Positions 2,347 through 11,084 of a stretch of 45,787 nt of DNA are shown here, piece after piece; the stretch's first letter is position 1; each line of letters opens with the position of its first letter. Source of the stretch: a virus; the IMG/VR virus record IMGVR_UViG_3300000553_000071, positions 1-45,787 of that record, one strand, 5' to 3'. The position numbers and the translations under genes were made by a program. Under the pieces are notes generated by a model that saw only the letters and a program-made list of their open reading frames with translations, searched no databases and was not told where the DNA came from.

Positions 2347-2607
2347 ATGCAACACAAGAAATTCTTAAGTCAAGATGAAAACCATTTTGTCTCATGGGAA
2401 GTTTGTGAATACAATACGGCTTGGGATGATAAAGTTCATTTTTTGCCTGAAATTACTATATTTGATGGGGATAAGGCAGTTTATTTTGGTTCTGGTATTG
2501 AGTCTATTCGTGCTTTAATACCTGAGTTACAGGCATTTATTAAGGAATATGATGCTGTTGTAAAAAAACATCAGTCTAAGCCTGCTAAGATGAAAGTTAA
2601 AAAATGA
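2347..2607 (+). CDS. Hypothetical early protein, 86 aa
   Basis: ATG 2347 follows AGGAGG at ideal spacing. The sequence suggests a beta-rich core (HFVSWEVCEYN, KVHFLPEITIFDG, KAVYFGSG) followed by a helix SIRALIPELQAFIKEY and a basic lysine tail. No known domain. Its stop overlaps the start of the HTH gene (ATGA), so the two are translationally coupled. Confidence 0.75.
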   Translation: MQHKKFLSQDENHFVSWEVCEYNTAWDDKVHFLPEITIFDGDKAVYFGSGIESIRALIPELQAFIKEYDAVVKKHQSKPAKMKVKK

Positions 2608-2828
2608 GTGAAAGGTTTTATAAGCCGATTATTTATTTAGTCAAACGTCATGGCAGTATGAAAAGGGCTGCGAAATGTCTAGGGGTATCTCACCAATTGT
2701 TGTTTTATTGGAACAGAAAGAAGAGTATGCCTGATTTATGGAAAGTGTATTTACATAAGAAGTATCGTGTTCCTTATAAATATTTCTTTACACATTTAGA
2801 AGAAGACTTGCAACATCCAACGAAGTAA
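2604..2828 (+). CDS. Cro/YdaS-like helix-turn-helix regulator, 74 aa
   Basis: Residues 14-34 (HGSMKRAAKCLGVSHQLLFYW) fit a helix-turn-helix of the YdaS/Cro type: helix, AAKCLGVS turn, recognition helix with Gln and Trp. The protein is basic. Phage proteins of this family bind operator DNA and control early transcription. Its position beside divergent promoters supports a transcriptional switch role. No integrase or second repressor is visible, so it need not imply lysogeny. Confidence 0.7.
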   Translation: MSERFYKPIIYLVKRHGSMKRAAKCLGVSHQLLFYWNRKKSMPDLWKVYLHKKYRVPYKYFFTHLEEDLQHPTK

Positions 2829-3235
2829 GGGATAATACCTATGTCTGGCGTGGAACCTAGATATTATCTCTGAAGAGCCTATTCACATGGGTTGGTTTTT
2901 AGATGTAAGTTATTCAGAGGACTTATATTTGATTTCCACCCAACCCAGCTGAATGGGCTTTTTCTTTTGGGTGACCGTACTCCATACGATAATAAGCACC
3001 TACATGGGTGGCGTGGAAGAGAACATAGGCTGACTTTGCACTCGGTAGCGTGCCTCGTGGACTTAAATGGGTATCACACAAGTATAAGGGACAACGGTGA
3101 GACAAGACCTTATACGATTGAACATTAACTCAGAGTAGGACTGGTGCTATGGCGGTATTTTAGTATGGGTCAGGTAGGTAAGTCCCTTATAGAATATAGA
3201 GGGGGGCTTATCACCCTTGGGGAACCTATTACTCA
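2828..3235 (+). ncRNA. Candidate structured non-coding RNA, about 400 nt
   Basis: This gene-free block is richer in G+C than its surroundings and full of long complementary pairs. They are 2828-2837 with 2862-2871 (10 bp, one G-U); 2888-2895 with 2940-2947 (8 bp, perfect) enclosing 2903-2910 with 2921-2928 (8 bp, one G-U); 3082-3089 with 3108-3115 (8 bp, perfect); and 3177-3186 with 3203-3212 (10 bp, two G-U). The two ORFs of 60 and 78 codons here lack ribosome sites and have composition unlike the neighbouring genes. It sits downstream of the rightward early promoter and before the helicase. I cannot assign it to a known RNA class; no clear group I intron core or T-run terminator was found. 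The strand is inferred from the flanking genes. Confidence 0.5.
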
Positions 3236-3328
3236 AAAAAATGACGATACAAAAAAAATAAAAATGCAATAAAACAACACAAAAATATTTCATTAGACAA
3301 TTTAAAAAGTCTCCATTAAAGTAATTGT

Positions 3329-4765
3329 ATGAAGAACAATTTAAGGCAGTATCAGATTGACTGTATCAGTCATCTTAGAGAATCTATCACTCGTAAACAT
3401 AAGCACATTGTCCTACAGATGGCGACAGGTGCTGGGAAAACGACTGTTGCAGCCGAGATGATCCGTTTAGCCAATAGTAAGGGCAAGAAATGTCTTTTCT
3501 TGGCAGACCGTATAGAACTCGTAGAGCAGACTTCTAATAGGTTTGACTATGAGGGTATACCACATGGCATTATCATGGCATCACACCCACGTTATGAGCC
3601 TCATAGCATCAATCAAATATGTTCTCCTCAGACATTAGCTAGACGTTCTATTCCTCATGCAGATTTAGTCATTATTGATGAATGTCACGTTGCGTATGGA
3701 GTCCATAAAAAGATGATGCAAGCGTTGCCTGATGCTGTATTTATAGGACTAAGTGCTACACCATTTACAAAGGGATTAGGTAAATTATATTCTGACTTAG
3801 TGGTAGGAGCTACTACCATTGATTTGACAAACGAAGGTTATCTTGTCCCCACCAAAGTCTTCGCACCAAGTAAACCAGACTTGACCAGACTGAAGATGAT
3901 CGGAGGCGATTATGACGAAAAAGAACTGTTCGCCAGAGTTAATAAGCCAAAACTCATCGGTGATATTGTAGATACTTGGGTAAAACTCGGAGAGAATCGC
4001 CCAACCATAGGATTTGGTGTCAACGTCATTCATAGTCAGGCTATCTGTCATGAGTTTCGCAATCGAGGAATTAGGGCTGAACACATAGACTCATATATGC
4101 CTAAAAGTGAGAGAGAACAGAAAGTAAAAGACTTTAAAGATGGGTATATAAGGGTATTGTTTAATGTGGGCATATTAGATAAGGGCTTTGATTATCCTGA
4201 AGCTAGTTGTCTCATTATGGCACGACCTACAAAAAGTCTCATGTTATATATCCAACAGGCAGGTAGGGTATTAAGAACCCATGAAAGCAAAGTTGATGCT
4301 ATTATTTTAGACCATGCAGGGAATACTGAGCAACATGGTTTTGTGACGGATGATTTACCACAGGAGTTAGATGATGGACAAAAGAAAAAGAAAGAAAGTA
4401 GTGTTAAGAAAAAAGAGGAAGTTACAATCTGTTCATCTTGTGCATTTGTTAAACCTCCTAAGACGTTCAAGTGTCCGTTATGCGGCTTTGCGCCAAAGAA
4501 AACAGATACTGGCATTATTACGGAAAAAGGTGAACTTATTGAAGTCGGCAGGAAGATTACCACTCAAGACAAACAAAAGACATATTCAGAACTTCTCCAT
4601 ATAGAAGTATTCAAACCTTATAAAAAGGGATTTGCTGCAAATATGTATAGGAATAAGTTTGGAGTATGGCCTAAAGGACTCAAGGAATATACTTTAGAGC
4701 CAAGTTTAGAAACACAAAATTTTGTAAAACATAGACTAATTGCATTTTCAAAGAAGAGGGCTTAG
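3329..4765 (+). CDS. SF2 DEAD/DEAH-family DNA helicase, 478 aa
   Basis: All the key motifs of a superfamily 2 helicase are visible: Q-motif-like RQYQ near the start, Walker A ATGAGKTT (32-39), IIDECH (motif II, about 115), SATP (motif III, about 142), and QQAGRVLR (motif VI, about 310). A charged Lys/Glu linker near residue 350 leads to a zinc ribbon CSSC...CPLC. It hydrolyses ATP to open duplex DNA. As it directly abuts the primase gene (adjacent codons), it is the likely replicative or origin-opening helicase, in the absence of any DnaB homologue. Only a weak ribosome site precedes ATG 3329. Confidence 0.93.
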   Translation: MKNNLRQYQIDCISHLRESITRKHKHIVLQMATGAGKTTVAAEMIRLANSKGKKCLFLADRIELVEQTSNRFDYEGIPHGIIMASHPRYEPHSINQICSPQTLARRSIPHADLVIIDECHVAYGVHKKMMQALPDAVFIGLSATPFTKGLGKLYSDLVVGATTIDLTNEGYLVPTKVFAPSKPDLTRLKMIGGDYDEKELFARVNKPKLIGDIVDTWVKLGENRPTIGFGVNVIHSQAICHEFRNRGIRAEHIDSYMPKSEREQKVKDFKDGYIRVLFNVGILDKGFDYPEASCLIMARPTKSLMLYIQQAGRVLRTHESKVDAIILDHAGNTEQHGFVTDDLPQELDDGQKKKKESSVKKKEEVTICSSCAFVKPPKTFKCPLCGFAPKKTDTGIITEKGELIEVGRKITTQDKQKTYSELLHIEVFKPYKKGFAANMYRNKFGVWPKGLKEYTLEPSLETQNFVKHRLIAFSKKRA

Positions 4766-5566
4766 ATGTTACTTGAACAAGCAATACAATATGCCGAACG
4801 TGGCTGGGCAGTCTTACCACTACATTCGGTGATAAAAGGACAATGCACGTGTGGTAAACCAGGCTGTCATAGTGCTGGAAAACACCCACAGACCATGAAT
4901 GGACTAAAGAGTGCTACAAAAGACAAAGATACCATCAATACATGGTTTAAACATTGGCCTAAAGCCAACATAGGAATCGCAACAGGTGCTATATCAGGTA
5001 TATCAGTCGTTGATATAGACCCTAAACATGGAGGAGAGGAAAGTTTAGATGAACTTACAACAAAATATACGAAAATTCCTGACACAGTCGAGGCTATTAC
5101 TCAATCTAAAGGAAGACACATTATCTTCCAACATGATGAGAACTTTAGAACAACGGCAGGTAAACTTGGCAGAGGAATTGATACACGAGGAGATGGAGGC
5201 TACATAGTTGCAGCACCTAGTCAGGGATTGTTGGGTAGATATGAATGGGAAGCTAGTTCTGAGCCTGAAAATTGTCCCATTGTCAAACCTCCACAATGGA
5301 TGTTAAACTTACTCAACGAGAATGAGCATTTAGAGTATGTGGCTGAGAAATTAGGGCCTGGACTACGTAATGCTTATCTTTGTAGTATTGGAGGGATGCT
5401 CAGATCACGAGGTGTAAGTTATAAAGGAATAGTGTCATGCTTACACGCAGAGAATTTAGAGAGATGTCACCCCCCATTAAATGAATTAGAAGTATGGCAG
5501 ATTGCCAAAAGTATGATGAGGTATGAACCTAAAATTGACCAAGAAAAAGTGCGATTTAAAAAATGA
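4766..5566 (+). CDS. Bifunctional primase/polymerase (Prim-Pol), 266 aa
   Basis: The N-terminal domain has the Prim-Pol signature: YAERGWAVLPL, a Cys/His cluster (C27, C29, C34, H35), GKHP, the catalytic pair in VVDIDPKHGG (D83, D85), SKGRHIIF and GIDTRGDGGYIVAAPS. The C-terminal 80 residues, with the pattern HPPLNELEVWQIAKS, match a PriCT-1-like domain. It synthesises primers, and some family members also extend DNA. It starts one base after the helicase stop. No family B or family A polymerase is present elsewhere, so this may be the only phage nucleotide polymerase. Confidence 0.92.
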   Translation: MLLEQAIQYAERGWAVLPLHSVIKGQCTCGKPGCHSAGKHPQTMNGLKSATKDKDTINTWFKHWPKANIGIATGAISGISVVDIDPKHGGEESLDELTTKYTKIPDTVEAITQSKGRHIIFQHDENFRTTAGKLGRGIDTRGDGGYIVAAPSQGLLGRYEWEASSEPENCPIVKPPQWMLNLLNENEHLEYVAEKLGPGLRNAYLCSIGGMLRSRGVSYKGIVSCLHAENLERCHPPLNELEVWQIAKSMMRYEPKIDQEKVRFKK

Positions 5567-9530: not shown

Positions 9531-9743
9531 TTAAGCTTCCTCTTTTGTAAGAGTAATATAATGTTGAATCATAGAATCATTGGCAACATTAACATTTTCA
9601 ACTTGCCAATCAGTTTCAGGAAGCTCAGTAAACATACAAAAATCAACATTATTTGATATGTCAATAACTTCATTTTCATTATCCGCCTCAATATTGATAG
9701 CATAATAAGTAATTTGTGAACATAAAATACGATATATAGCCAT
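9531..9743 (-). CDS. Small acidic hypothetical protein, 70 aa
   Basis: ATG 9743 is preceded by AAGGGGG embedded in the last codons of the upstream membrane peptide. The protein begins MAIYRILCSQITYYAINIEAD with alternating beta-type residues, then NENEVIDISNN, and ends ITLTKEEA. Acidic and compact, which is typical of phage anti-host proteins, but no function can be assigned. Confidence 0.72.
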   Translation of the reverse strand: MAIYRILCSQITYYAINIEADNENEVIDISNNVDFCMFTELPETDWQVENVNVANDSMIQHYITLTKEEA

Positions 9744-9745
9744 GA

Positions 9746-9847
9746 TTAAAACCCCCTTAAATAAGTTAAAACATTAAAAATAGTGTCAATAATGCTAGTA
9801 ATACATATTACCAATACAAATAAAACCTCGTAAAAATTAAACTTCAT
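9746..9847 (-). CDS. Membrane micropeptide, 33 aa
   Basis: ATG 9847 follows AAGGGGG. Residues 7-29 are strongly hydrophobic (YEVLFVLVICITSIID, TIFNVL), predicting one transmembrane helix. It ends LRGF, because the codons AGG GGG TTT also form the ribosome site of the next gene. The same arrangement recurs in the peptide at 10081. Function unknown. Confidence 0.6.
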   Translation of the reverse strand: MKFNFYEVLFVLVICITSIIDTIFNVLTYLRGF

Positions 9848-9857
9848 ATAAACCCCC

Positions 9858-10079
9858 TTAATTTAAAAAGTATTCTTTAAGCCATTCTCTAGCTTGTTTT
9901 AATGACTTAGTATTGAATTTTGCTATTTCATTGTGTTCTGGATCAGTAATAACGTAGTGCCATTCTCTATGATCGAATGTAAAAGTATATGAGACATTAT
10001 TTATCTTTAATGTTCCATTTTTGGCATTTGCAGCCATTTTGCCAGCCTGGCTTAATAATTTATTGCTTATTATTTCCAT
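9858..10079 (-). CDS. Small hypothetical protein, 73 aa
   Basis: The start at ATG 10079 is preferred to a longer in-frame start at 10124 because AAGGGG lies just upstream of it, within the end of the previous gene. The sequence has a basic helix (SNKLLSQAGKMAANAK), beta strands (GTLKINNVSYTFTFD, EWHYVITD) and a final helix SLKQAREWLKEYF. No family recognised. Confidence 0.72.
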   Translation of the reverse strand: MEIISNKLLSQAGKMAANAKNGTLKINNVSYTFTFDHREWHYVITDPEHNEIAKFNTKSLKQAREWLKEYFLN

Positions 10080-10080
10080 A

Positions 10081-10173
10081 TTAAAACCCCTTAGAATAAA
10101 TATAAGTAATTGCAAACAATGCACCTAAAAAAGCACTAAAAAGAATACATAAGATATCGTCTAAGTATTTCAT
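10081..10173 (-). CDS. Membrane micropeptide, 30 aa
   Basis: ATG 10173 overlaps the upstream stop as ATGA. The peptide is MKYLDD followed by one hydrophobic helix (ILCILFSAFLGALFAITYIY) and the end SKGF, whose AAG GGG TTT codons double as the next gene's ribosome site. It is the second peptide of this design in the island, which supports it being a real gene class rather than chance. Confidence 0.6.
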   Translation of the reverse strand: MKYLDDILCILFSAFLGALFAITYIYSKGF

Positions 10174-10436
10174 GCTGTTACCTCTTCGGTAGAATAAACA
10201 TTAGAATTTCCAATAAATGCGAATATATAGCCTGAATCATTCCCTCCTGATGCATATTCTCCGTCCCATTCCATCTTTTTAGCCAATTCTATTGCAACCT
10301 TAGCATGAGCTTTCTCTACATCTAAGGAATAATCATAAGACCTGATAATAGAGTCATTAGAAAATGAGCAAGTAGCCTTGATTCTTGATCCTTTTGTGTC
10401 GGTTGCTGGTAAAAATTTAGTAGATATATATTGCAT
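10170..10436 (-). CDS. Hypothetical protein, 88 aa
   Basis: ATG 10436 follows AAGGGGAG. The sequence starts MQYISTKFLPATDTKGSRIK, then CSFSNDSIIRSYDYSL, a helix EKAHAKVAIELAKKMEW and GYIFAFIGNSNVY. This order looks like a family of small phage proteins in which a TxxxGSRI core precedes a helix with AH and W residues; their function is unknown to me. Member of the leftward island. Confidence 0.75.
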   Translation of the reverse strand: MQYISTKFLPATDTKGSRIKATCSFSNDSIIRSYDYSLDVEKAHAKVAIELAKKMEWDGEYASGGNDSGYIFAFIGNSNVYSTEEVTA

Positions 10437-10448
10437 GATTAACTCCCC

Positions 10449-10577
10449 TTATCTTGATAAAATATGAACTGTTTGTATAGCGTCTGATTCTTTGCTATAA
10501 ACTTGTGTTAATGATTGCATTGTATTTAAATCAATAATTACAAAATAATTATTTGTGTTGATAATTTGATATTTCAT
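10449..10577 (-). CDS. First gene of leftward small-gene island, 42 aa
   Basis: ATG 10577 follows TTAAGGGGG at good spacing. The peptide starts MKYQIINTNNYFVIIDLN and continues TMQSLTQVYSKESDAIQTV, with a strand-strand-helix look. It is the gene nearest the 620-bp gene-free region, so the promoter for the island should lie just upstream, although I saw no convincing consensus pair there. Confidence 0.65.
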   Translation of the reverse strand: MKYQIINTNNYFVIIDLNTMQSLTQVYSKESDAIQTVHILSR

Positions 10578-10684
10578 AAAACCCCCTTAAAAAATGTTTG
10601 TTAAATATACACTCCCTCAAGTGCATATAAGTAGTTTACGGATAAAAACAATAAAAATATATAGGGACAAACCCTTATGGGTTT

Positions 10685-11084
10685 ATATACAGTATTTCAT
10701 TACCAATTCTTGCAATAGTTTTAACCTATAAGTTAAACAATAATAATAGAAATAAACTATTAGGTATCATATATATAGATAGAGGATATGGACGCTCGGA
10801 AAAAGCCCGAAAGAATACTTTTAGATTAAAACTTATTAAAACATATATATAAAAATATCCAATAGAGAGATAAGAACATATAAGGGGATATACAAGCATT
10901 ACCCTATGATTGCCCATGAATAGCACTACTACACCTACACCCTCACTACTCATTAGACAGTCTTCTAGATACCTTAAAGGGCCCATAATACATACACATT
11001 TCGGACAAATATCCCTCTATCCTATTGATATATAAGGGATAAGGGGGATACCTACCTACATAAGACCAGGTAAATACTGTATAT
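10685..11084. repeat. 13-nt perfect inverted repeats bounding a 374-nt interval
   Basis: ATATACAGTATTT at 10685-10697 is the exact reverse complement of AAATACTGTATAT at 11072-11084. Such a long perfect match within a short gene-free region is unlikely by chance, although both arms are A+T-rich. It could be the closing stem of an RNA or paired protein-binding sites. A related TATATACAG occurs at 11187-11196, near the late promoter candidate. Confidence 0.55.

Follow-up and report, generated by a model that had tools for sequence, protein, structure and literature searches.

In lambdoid phages, unrelated elements (nut and put) occupy the putR slot. The put RNAs are about 70 nt long and form two stem-loops, and in HK022 about 270 nt separate putR from the PR start upstream of it (PMC9378689). 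GOLLD and ROOL are described as large, elaborate structured RNAs associated with phages (PMC12286853). Betaproteobacteria-1 RNA (RF02932) is represented by a 120-nt Rfam model, and our literature search found no paper on it. The RNA II of ColE1 is a structured leader located near replication genes; it has a promoter of its own and an A-rich stretch after it.

The RNA described here lies between a small HTH protein gene and a helicase gene in a viral sequence of 45,787 nt (IMGVR_UViG_3300000553_000071), the whole of which we refer to as the window. Like putL and putR of HK022, it is found near the start of early operons and is co-directional with them, here after a Cro-like gene. Unlike put, it is not followed by an excess of intrinsic terminators and has a conserved core of about 255 nt with several pseudoknots (core B), the cores of this locus being about 200-260 nt overall and much more elaborate than put. 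It is smaller than GOLLD and ROOL and matches neither in Rfam, and we know of no common 5' domain with exchangeable cores in those RNAs. With a ColE1 RNA II-type primer it shares a putative promoter, structure, an A-rich 3' flank, and replication genes nearby; no sequence relation to RNA II was found. In closely related phages, RF02932, which we refer to as core A, is found in the same slot of the genome; it has matching neighbour genes and, in many loci, a homologous 5' domain before it. This likeness in slot and 5' domain lies outside the Rfam definition of the family, the model of which covers only part of a larger RNA. Core B, in contrast, fails the RF02932 model and has no detectable sequence in common with it.

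A structured, non-coding block downstream of a Cro-like gene

The gene directly upstream of the RNA, in the position of cro, encodes a small HTH protein (2604-2828, plus strand; weak HTH match, E 0.0015). Its counterparts at the same position in two homologous loci are P22_Cro proteins (PF14549; E 4e-10 in L013 and 5e-7 in L188), and the gene before the RNA usually encodes a small Cro-like regulator. Downstream of the RNA and on the same strand are genes for a ResIII/DEAD helicase (3329-4765) and, following it, a Prim-Pol primase (4766-5566).

The initial annotation had described positions 2828-3235 as a gene-free block with at least five long stems and an elevated G+C content. All five inverted repeats are indeed present (2828-2837/2862-2871, 2888-2895/2940-2947, 2903-2910/2921-2928, 3082-3089/3108-3115, and 3177-3186/3203-3212), two of them nested, and the G+C content of the core is 0.47, compared with about 0.37 around it. 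The absence of genes was also confirmed: whichever of the six frames is read, no more than 9 of 79 homologues lack a stop codon in the 170-nt core, none of these frames is conserved among the 79 sequences, and the length of core B in homologues varies in all three phases. A protein-coding block was thus rejected, as no frame is kept across homologues.

Compared with dinucleotide shuffles, the plus strand of 2826-3240 folds into an unusually stable structure (-136.6 kcal/mol, z = -5.2; none of 100 shuffles equally low), whereas the minus strand is only slightly below its shuffles (z = -1.85). The 5' domain (2843-2966), with a z of -5.55 on its own, accounts for almost all of this stability; core B alone reaches only about -1. 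The folding energy of core B is weak because the core is made of short helices and pseudoknots, and the evidence for it is therefore covariation and not energy. It would have been missed by folding energy alone, and the comparative evidence decides. The structured RNA is larger than first described and spans about 2843-3235 on the plus strand.

Core B is a conserved multi-pseudoknot RNA

A blastn search of the block against INPHARED (50,697 records) returned one match above chance, the circular genome MW202674 (Podoviridae sp. ctn9Y15, Manatee Spring), with 75% identity over 111 nt. In this record (MW202674.1, 5007-5377), small hypothetical proteins are annotated on the minus strand over the RNA (UOF80262-UOF80264), which are probably annotation artefacts. 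Patterns derived from the shared stretch matched 48, at least 120, and 31 viral contigs in overlapping sets, and core B was found in about 150 uncultivated viral contigs (153 places by a regular expression over the fetched loci). Seven further cores searched with blastn against cultured phages again matched MW202674 only, and core A had no match in INPHARED. Four exact-pattern matches in bacterial genomes (L260-L263) had no covariance model match, and a pattern match in L126 scored 20.6 bits over only 52 nt; all were dismissed as chance.

Covariation was evaluated with a home-made APC-corrected G-test and pair counts, with slid and shuffled controls. The alignment (A3) comprises 79 sequences with a mutual identity below about 90% and covers 2976-3146 of core B (2976-3231, plus strand). 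RNAalifold predicted 19 pairs from it, 12 of them with compensatory changes. A 34-pair structure that includes the pseudoknots has 94.1% of cells paired, compared with 29-39% when partners were slid by 1-3 columns, and contains 531 doubly changed cells compared with 162 +/- 14 in shuffles. G-U cells (126) far outnumber A-C cells (26), the pattern expected of an RNA on the plus strand. The G-test on 107 unique sequences added a long-range pairing (3096-3100/3211-3215) and helices f and g. The covariance model of core B (R1) scores 171.9 bits on the window, which is one of the model's own sequences.

The fold is elaborate and pseudoknotted, with invariant loops, and all of its elements are on the plus strand. 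Helix a (2976-2988; 2976-2978/2986-2988) is paired in 100% of cells, with double changes, and its loop forms a pseudoknot (2981-2984 with 3014-3017) that is 96.7% paired and also has double changes. Helix b (2997-3010; 2997-3000/3007-3010) is 100% paired with up to 43 of 77 sequences doubly changed, and base 3006 in its loop covaries with 3024 (GC 60, CG 7). Covariation also supports helix c (3027-3055; 3027-3030/3052-3055, with an inner helix 3032-3034/3045-3047). Helix d (3057-3077; 3057-3062/3071-3077) is 100% paired and has double changes in five of six pairs, and helix e (3082-3115; 3082-3089/3108-3115), the fourth of the inverted repeats, covaries strongly, with double changes in seven of eight pairs. 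The long-range pairing joins GGTGA at 3096-3100 to TCACC at 3211-3215: pair 3100-3211 is 100% paired (AU 65, GC 41, CG 1), and the whole-strand combinations are GGTGA/TCACC (20), AGTGG/CCACT (5), and AGTGG/ACACC (3). Helix f (3139-3141/3169-3171) is exemplified by pair 3139-3171 (GC 60, CG 43) and helix g (3145-3150/3160-3165) by pair 3148-3162, which occurs as AU, CG, UA, and GC. The 3' hairpin (3177-3212), the fifth of the repeats, is variable in size; relatives have a hairpin there too, but support for it is modest, with a stem of at least 5 bp in 86 of 102 homologues compared with 46 of 102 after shuffling. At its 3' end the core is conserved (3207-3231, CTTATCACCCTTGGGGAACCTAT...), and the A-rich stretch that comes next contains no intrinsic terminator.

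None of the 4227 Rfam 15 families, which include GOLLD, ROOL, introns, RNase P, tmRNA, and riboswitches, matches the window at gathering, and an Ms_IGR-7 match to 2600-3340 at E 7.5 is attributable to chance. Ten homologue loci likewise matched no family at the RNA, and only tRNA elsewhere. The RF02932 model has no match in the window at gathering (49.4 bits) and none in 2600-3340 at E <= 10, and scores 90.7-109.4 bits in four relatives; R1, in turn, has no match in the RF02932 loci. Neither core B nor the modular arrangement described below was found in the open-access library searched; an older description in Weinberg 2017 (NAR, gkx699) is possible, although Rfam 15 should then contain such an RNA. 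Covariation across 79 divergent homologues, no Rfam match, and no coding potential together confirm a discrete, plus-strand RNA and uphold the initial proposal of a new structured phage RNA, and core B appears to be a new, previously uncatalogued RNA class. Each of the three outcomes named at the outset as refuting that proposal is contradicted: the homologues covary, the block folds below its shuffled controls, and no frame is kept.

Chance secondary structure or a missed protein gene has a negligible probability. Short ORFs do occur within the block, and the minus-strand proteins annotated in MW202674 could be cited in favour of a gene, but no reading frame is conserved, and the excess of double changes (531 versus 162) and the fraction of paired cells (94% versus 29-39% slid) refute chance structure.

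Promoter and 5' domain

A pattern scan located a sigma70-like promoter (2808-2836, plus strand) with TTGCAA at 2808-2813, a 17-nt spacer, and GATAAT at 2831-2836. It is the predicted promoter of the RNA, whose transcription would be expected to start near 2843, and a TATAAT-like element is aligned at its position in homologues. The first inverted repeat (2828-2837/2862-2871) overlaps the -10 hexamer of this probable promoter and lies outside the conserved structure, and the second and third correspond to parts of stem II and its inner hairpin IIa.

The 5' domain begins with hairpin I (2844-2861, plus strand; stem 2844-2848/2857-2861, loop GTGGAA at 2850-2855), the architecture of which is shared by other subtypes. 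Stem II (2872-2963, plus strand) is formed by 2872-2885/2950-2963 and 2888-2895/2940-2947, encloses hairpin IIa (2899-2911/2920-2932, plus strand), and is directly followed by a U-rich, terminator-like run (2959-2968, plus strand) that is kept at this position in the subtypes possessing stem II. In the apical region of stem II, 2933-2939 is unpaired in the minimum-energy fold and contains TTCCAC (2934-2939, plus strand), the partner strand of the hairpin I loop.

In the CAG..CTG subtype of the domain, this loop pseudoknot is well supported, because in 119 of 125 domains the hairpin I loop and the partner strand of the same domain are complementary over 6 bp or more, compared with a mean of 19.7 and a maximum of 29 in a re-dealt control; the hairpin has about 30 different sequences in these 125 domains. 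The support comes from this subtype-specific test: an earlier automated search was noisy (33 of 77 versus about 9 in shuffles), and a second narrow pattern matched too few domains. By analogy, and from exact complementarity, the pseudoknot 2850-2855/2934-2939 is likely also in the subtype of the window.

Most homologues have, upstream of the core, a -10-like element, then a hairpin, and then a long stem that ends in a U run. The 5' domain is not universal: in L138, L164, and L200 the core directly follows the upstream gene, and in loci of the L116 type its place is taken by a terminator, a promoter-like element, and a 5' stem of another kind. In L138 (1-835), core B follows an HNH-like endonuclease gene and precedes an apparent major capsid gene, which suggests that the core moved to a new place, its close relatives having it in the early region.

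Unrelated cores are exchanged behind one 5' domain

Phages whose helicases are 74-90% identical carry RF02932 in the same place as the block. The closest relative of the window across the block (L001) is 78% identical to it up to 2824 and 82% identical from 3267, and between these positions, where L001 carries core A, there is no similarity. Another relative (L002) is 100% identical to the window from 3557 on and ends before the block, and in four loci (L194, L195, L204, and L212) similarity to the window is confined to the block. The proteins encoded around RF02932 correspond, position for position, to those encoded around core B, and in 66 of 110 RF02932 loci the 5' region is a homologue of one found with core B; between the core A and core B sequences there are 0 matches.

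We searched with the 18 bases that close one subtype of the 5' domain, irrespective of the core, and the core slot was occupied in every recognised 5' domain (about 122 places). Core B follows in 58 places, core C in 26, core A in 17, core D in 14 (and a variant in L327), core E in 4, core F in 2, and core G in 1; two more places were chance matches and four were too short. The RNA is bipartite: a 5' domain is joined to a core, and there are at least seven unrelated cores, that of the window being core B. It is nearly the same 5' domain that carries cores A (RF02932), B, C, D, E, F, and G. Core C occurs in 86 contigs and core D in 59, both with compensatory changes; cores B, C, and D are well supported, and E, F, and G, which come from few sequences, are less certain. 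Loci with cores C-G match no Rfam family at the core.

The boundaries of the exchange are sharp. Over 899 nt a locus with core A (L328) and one with core C (L449) have 100% identity, which is lost at the core boundary, and similarity resumes 3' of the core between loci with A and C (L369 and L416) and with B and D (L203 and L342). Cores are replaced cleanly by recombination between shared flanks. Phage protein modules are known to be swapped between shared flanks, and at this locus the swapped module is a whole structured RNA. This phage RNA locus is modular, with core B as one allele and core A as the only core known to Rfam: up to six RNA classes absent from Rfam (B-G) occur at a single locus, and the orphan family RF02932 gains a context as a further allele. 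Given this arrangement, a simple search behind the 5' domain is predicted to yield more cores, and function becomes testable by exchanging cores in an otherwise identical phage.

Though unrelated, cores B, C, and D have a similar CTATG(G)-like motif near the 3' end, with A-rich sequence after it in B and C; the motif is absent from core A. Core E (L308, L314, L350, and L378) differs in character from the other cores: sequences in it such as GGGGGGGTAGGGGGGG could form a G-quadruplex, and it also has a AGAGAAAACACCAGTTTTCTT hairpin. In the Cro-helicase slot of the cultured Pseudomonas phage PS-1 (L264, 2385-2997) there is a non-coding gap of 613 nt with a modest folding signal (z -2.2) that matches neither R1 nor Rfam and may hold yet another core.

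A further possibility, which we consider less likely than not, is a polymorphic RNA system in which a constant 5' platform would host one of many unrelated, exchangeable effector cores. It would be an RNA counterpart of polymorphic toxin/immunity modules, with the identity of the core setting phage-host or phage-phage compatibility.

Genomic context and candidate functions

The RNA is present once in all of 30 viral records, one of which is the circular MW202674. There it heads almost the entire plus strand of the genome, and that of the window precedes about 37 kb of mostly plus-strand genes. Among 174 loci of cores A and B, the first downstream gene with homologue support is co-directional with the RNA in 172, and in the other two it appears to be a shadow ORF; this co-direction is partly expected, since most loci share one genomic slot. 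No intrinsic terminator was evident after the core in the loci inspected. The genes downstream of homologues include those for an acyltransferase, a ParB-like protein with a helicase, a replication protein, a methyltransferase, a glycosyltransferase and, in a few contigs, a terminase (L168 and L194) or a major capsid protein (L138), the capsid and glycosyltransferase assignments having been made by eye. The RNA has the appearance of a plug-in component that phages require for early gene expression.

The most likely mechanism, with a probability of about 0.4, is a cis-acting, put-like leader that modifies RNA polymerase and is built from exchangeable modules. The RNA would head the main rightward transcription unit, at the position of HK022 putR or lambda nutR, and act in cis. 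The core would fold on leaving RNA polymerase and, alone or with a host factor, would make the polymerase resist pausing or termination, and the long rightward unit would be transcribed as a result of this conversion. U-tailed stem II and the pseudoknot could serve as a checkpoint at which the polymerase continues into the core or does not, and the cores would be functionally equivalent, mutually exclusive modules. Cis action is favoured by the position and orientation of the RNA, the lack of a 3' terminator, the slot that is always filled once, and the varied downstream genes. We infer promoter activity, cis action, and the put-like effect on RNA polymerase.

The put-like role itself is disfavoured by a size far above that of put and by the lack of an excess of intrinsic terminators downstream (plus versus minus strand, 20 versus 26 for core B and 24 versus 31 for core A). 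There is therefore no visible need for read-through as far as intrinsic terminators go. Many loci have a promoter-like element 3' of the RNA, so downstream genes may not depend on it, and the checkpoint would not be general, because L138, L164, and L200 are without the 5' domain. If the cores are antiterminators made of RNA only, the class to which put and a few others belong would grow greatly.

The initial suggestion of a leader specific to the helicase/primase operon is unsupported in that form, as the genes downstream of homologues vary. A riboswitch or translational control element of this operon is accordingly very improbable: the RNA of the window is about 100 nt upstream of the helicase gene, and in L116-type loci a start codon is within about 30 nt after the core, but the diversity of downstream genes and their varying distance largely refute gene-specific control, and between the window and L001 the core was swapped without a change of downstream gene. 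A general, gene-independent leader function is possible.

Alternatively, the early transcript may be processed to release a trans-acting effector, the core of which acts on a molecule of the host or of a rival phage, with RNA polymerase, the ribosome, and a defence system as candidate targets; we hold this main rival of the cis-acting leader to be possible but tentative. The exchange of unrelated cores would then amount to target diversification, as at anti-defence cargo sites, and the recent, clean swap of unrelated cores behind near-identical flanks (100% over 899 nt) fits such a role, as do the elaborate pseudoknotted folds with invariant loops and the promoter-like element that most subtypes have of their own. 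In L118, though a contig of only 4.2 kb, convergent lysis genes come within 28 nt of the core, an arrangement that also speaks for action in trans. Against it are the co-direction of 172 of 174 loci, the lack of a terminator or other defined 3' end, and a slot that is always filled with one copy per genome, in which it differs from optional cargo. Should the cores be trans-acting effectors, they would be phage factors of a new type, serving takeover or counter-defence.

The cis-acting leader also has to be weighed against a role in replication, as a primer transcript resembling ColE1 RNA II that would be cleaved in the A-rich stretch, or as a transcribed activator of the phage origin, which we regard as unlikely. 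The A-rich stretch 3' of the core, the single copy per genome, the adjoining helicase/primase genes in the window and several relatives, the TTGTAAAGTTAT repeats between RNA and helicase in three loci (L003, L005, and L008), and a cumulative GC-skew minimum near 2.3 kb are consistent with it. The skew change, however, falls where the genes change orientation and is explained just as well by that, and in the examined stretches of L168 and L194 (terminase) and L138 (capsid) the RNAs are not near recognised replication genes.

Further sequence features accompany the locus. In the window, short minus-strand ORFs of lower G+C content (9531-10986) break the otherwise rightward genes and are possibly inserted or leftward early genes. 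L003, L005, and L008 have two or three iteron-like TTGTAAAGTTA copies between the RNA and the helicase, possible origin or operator repeats that are absent from the window. In many loci with core B (e.g., L188, L173, and L120) the 3' flank carries recurrent TAGGGAAANNACCTA and TTAAGTTAGCTTAA-like palindromes by the downstream promoter-like element, which are probably operators.
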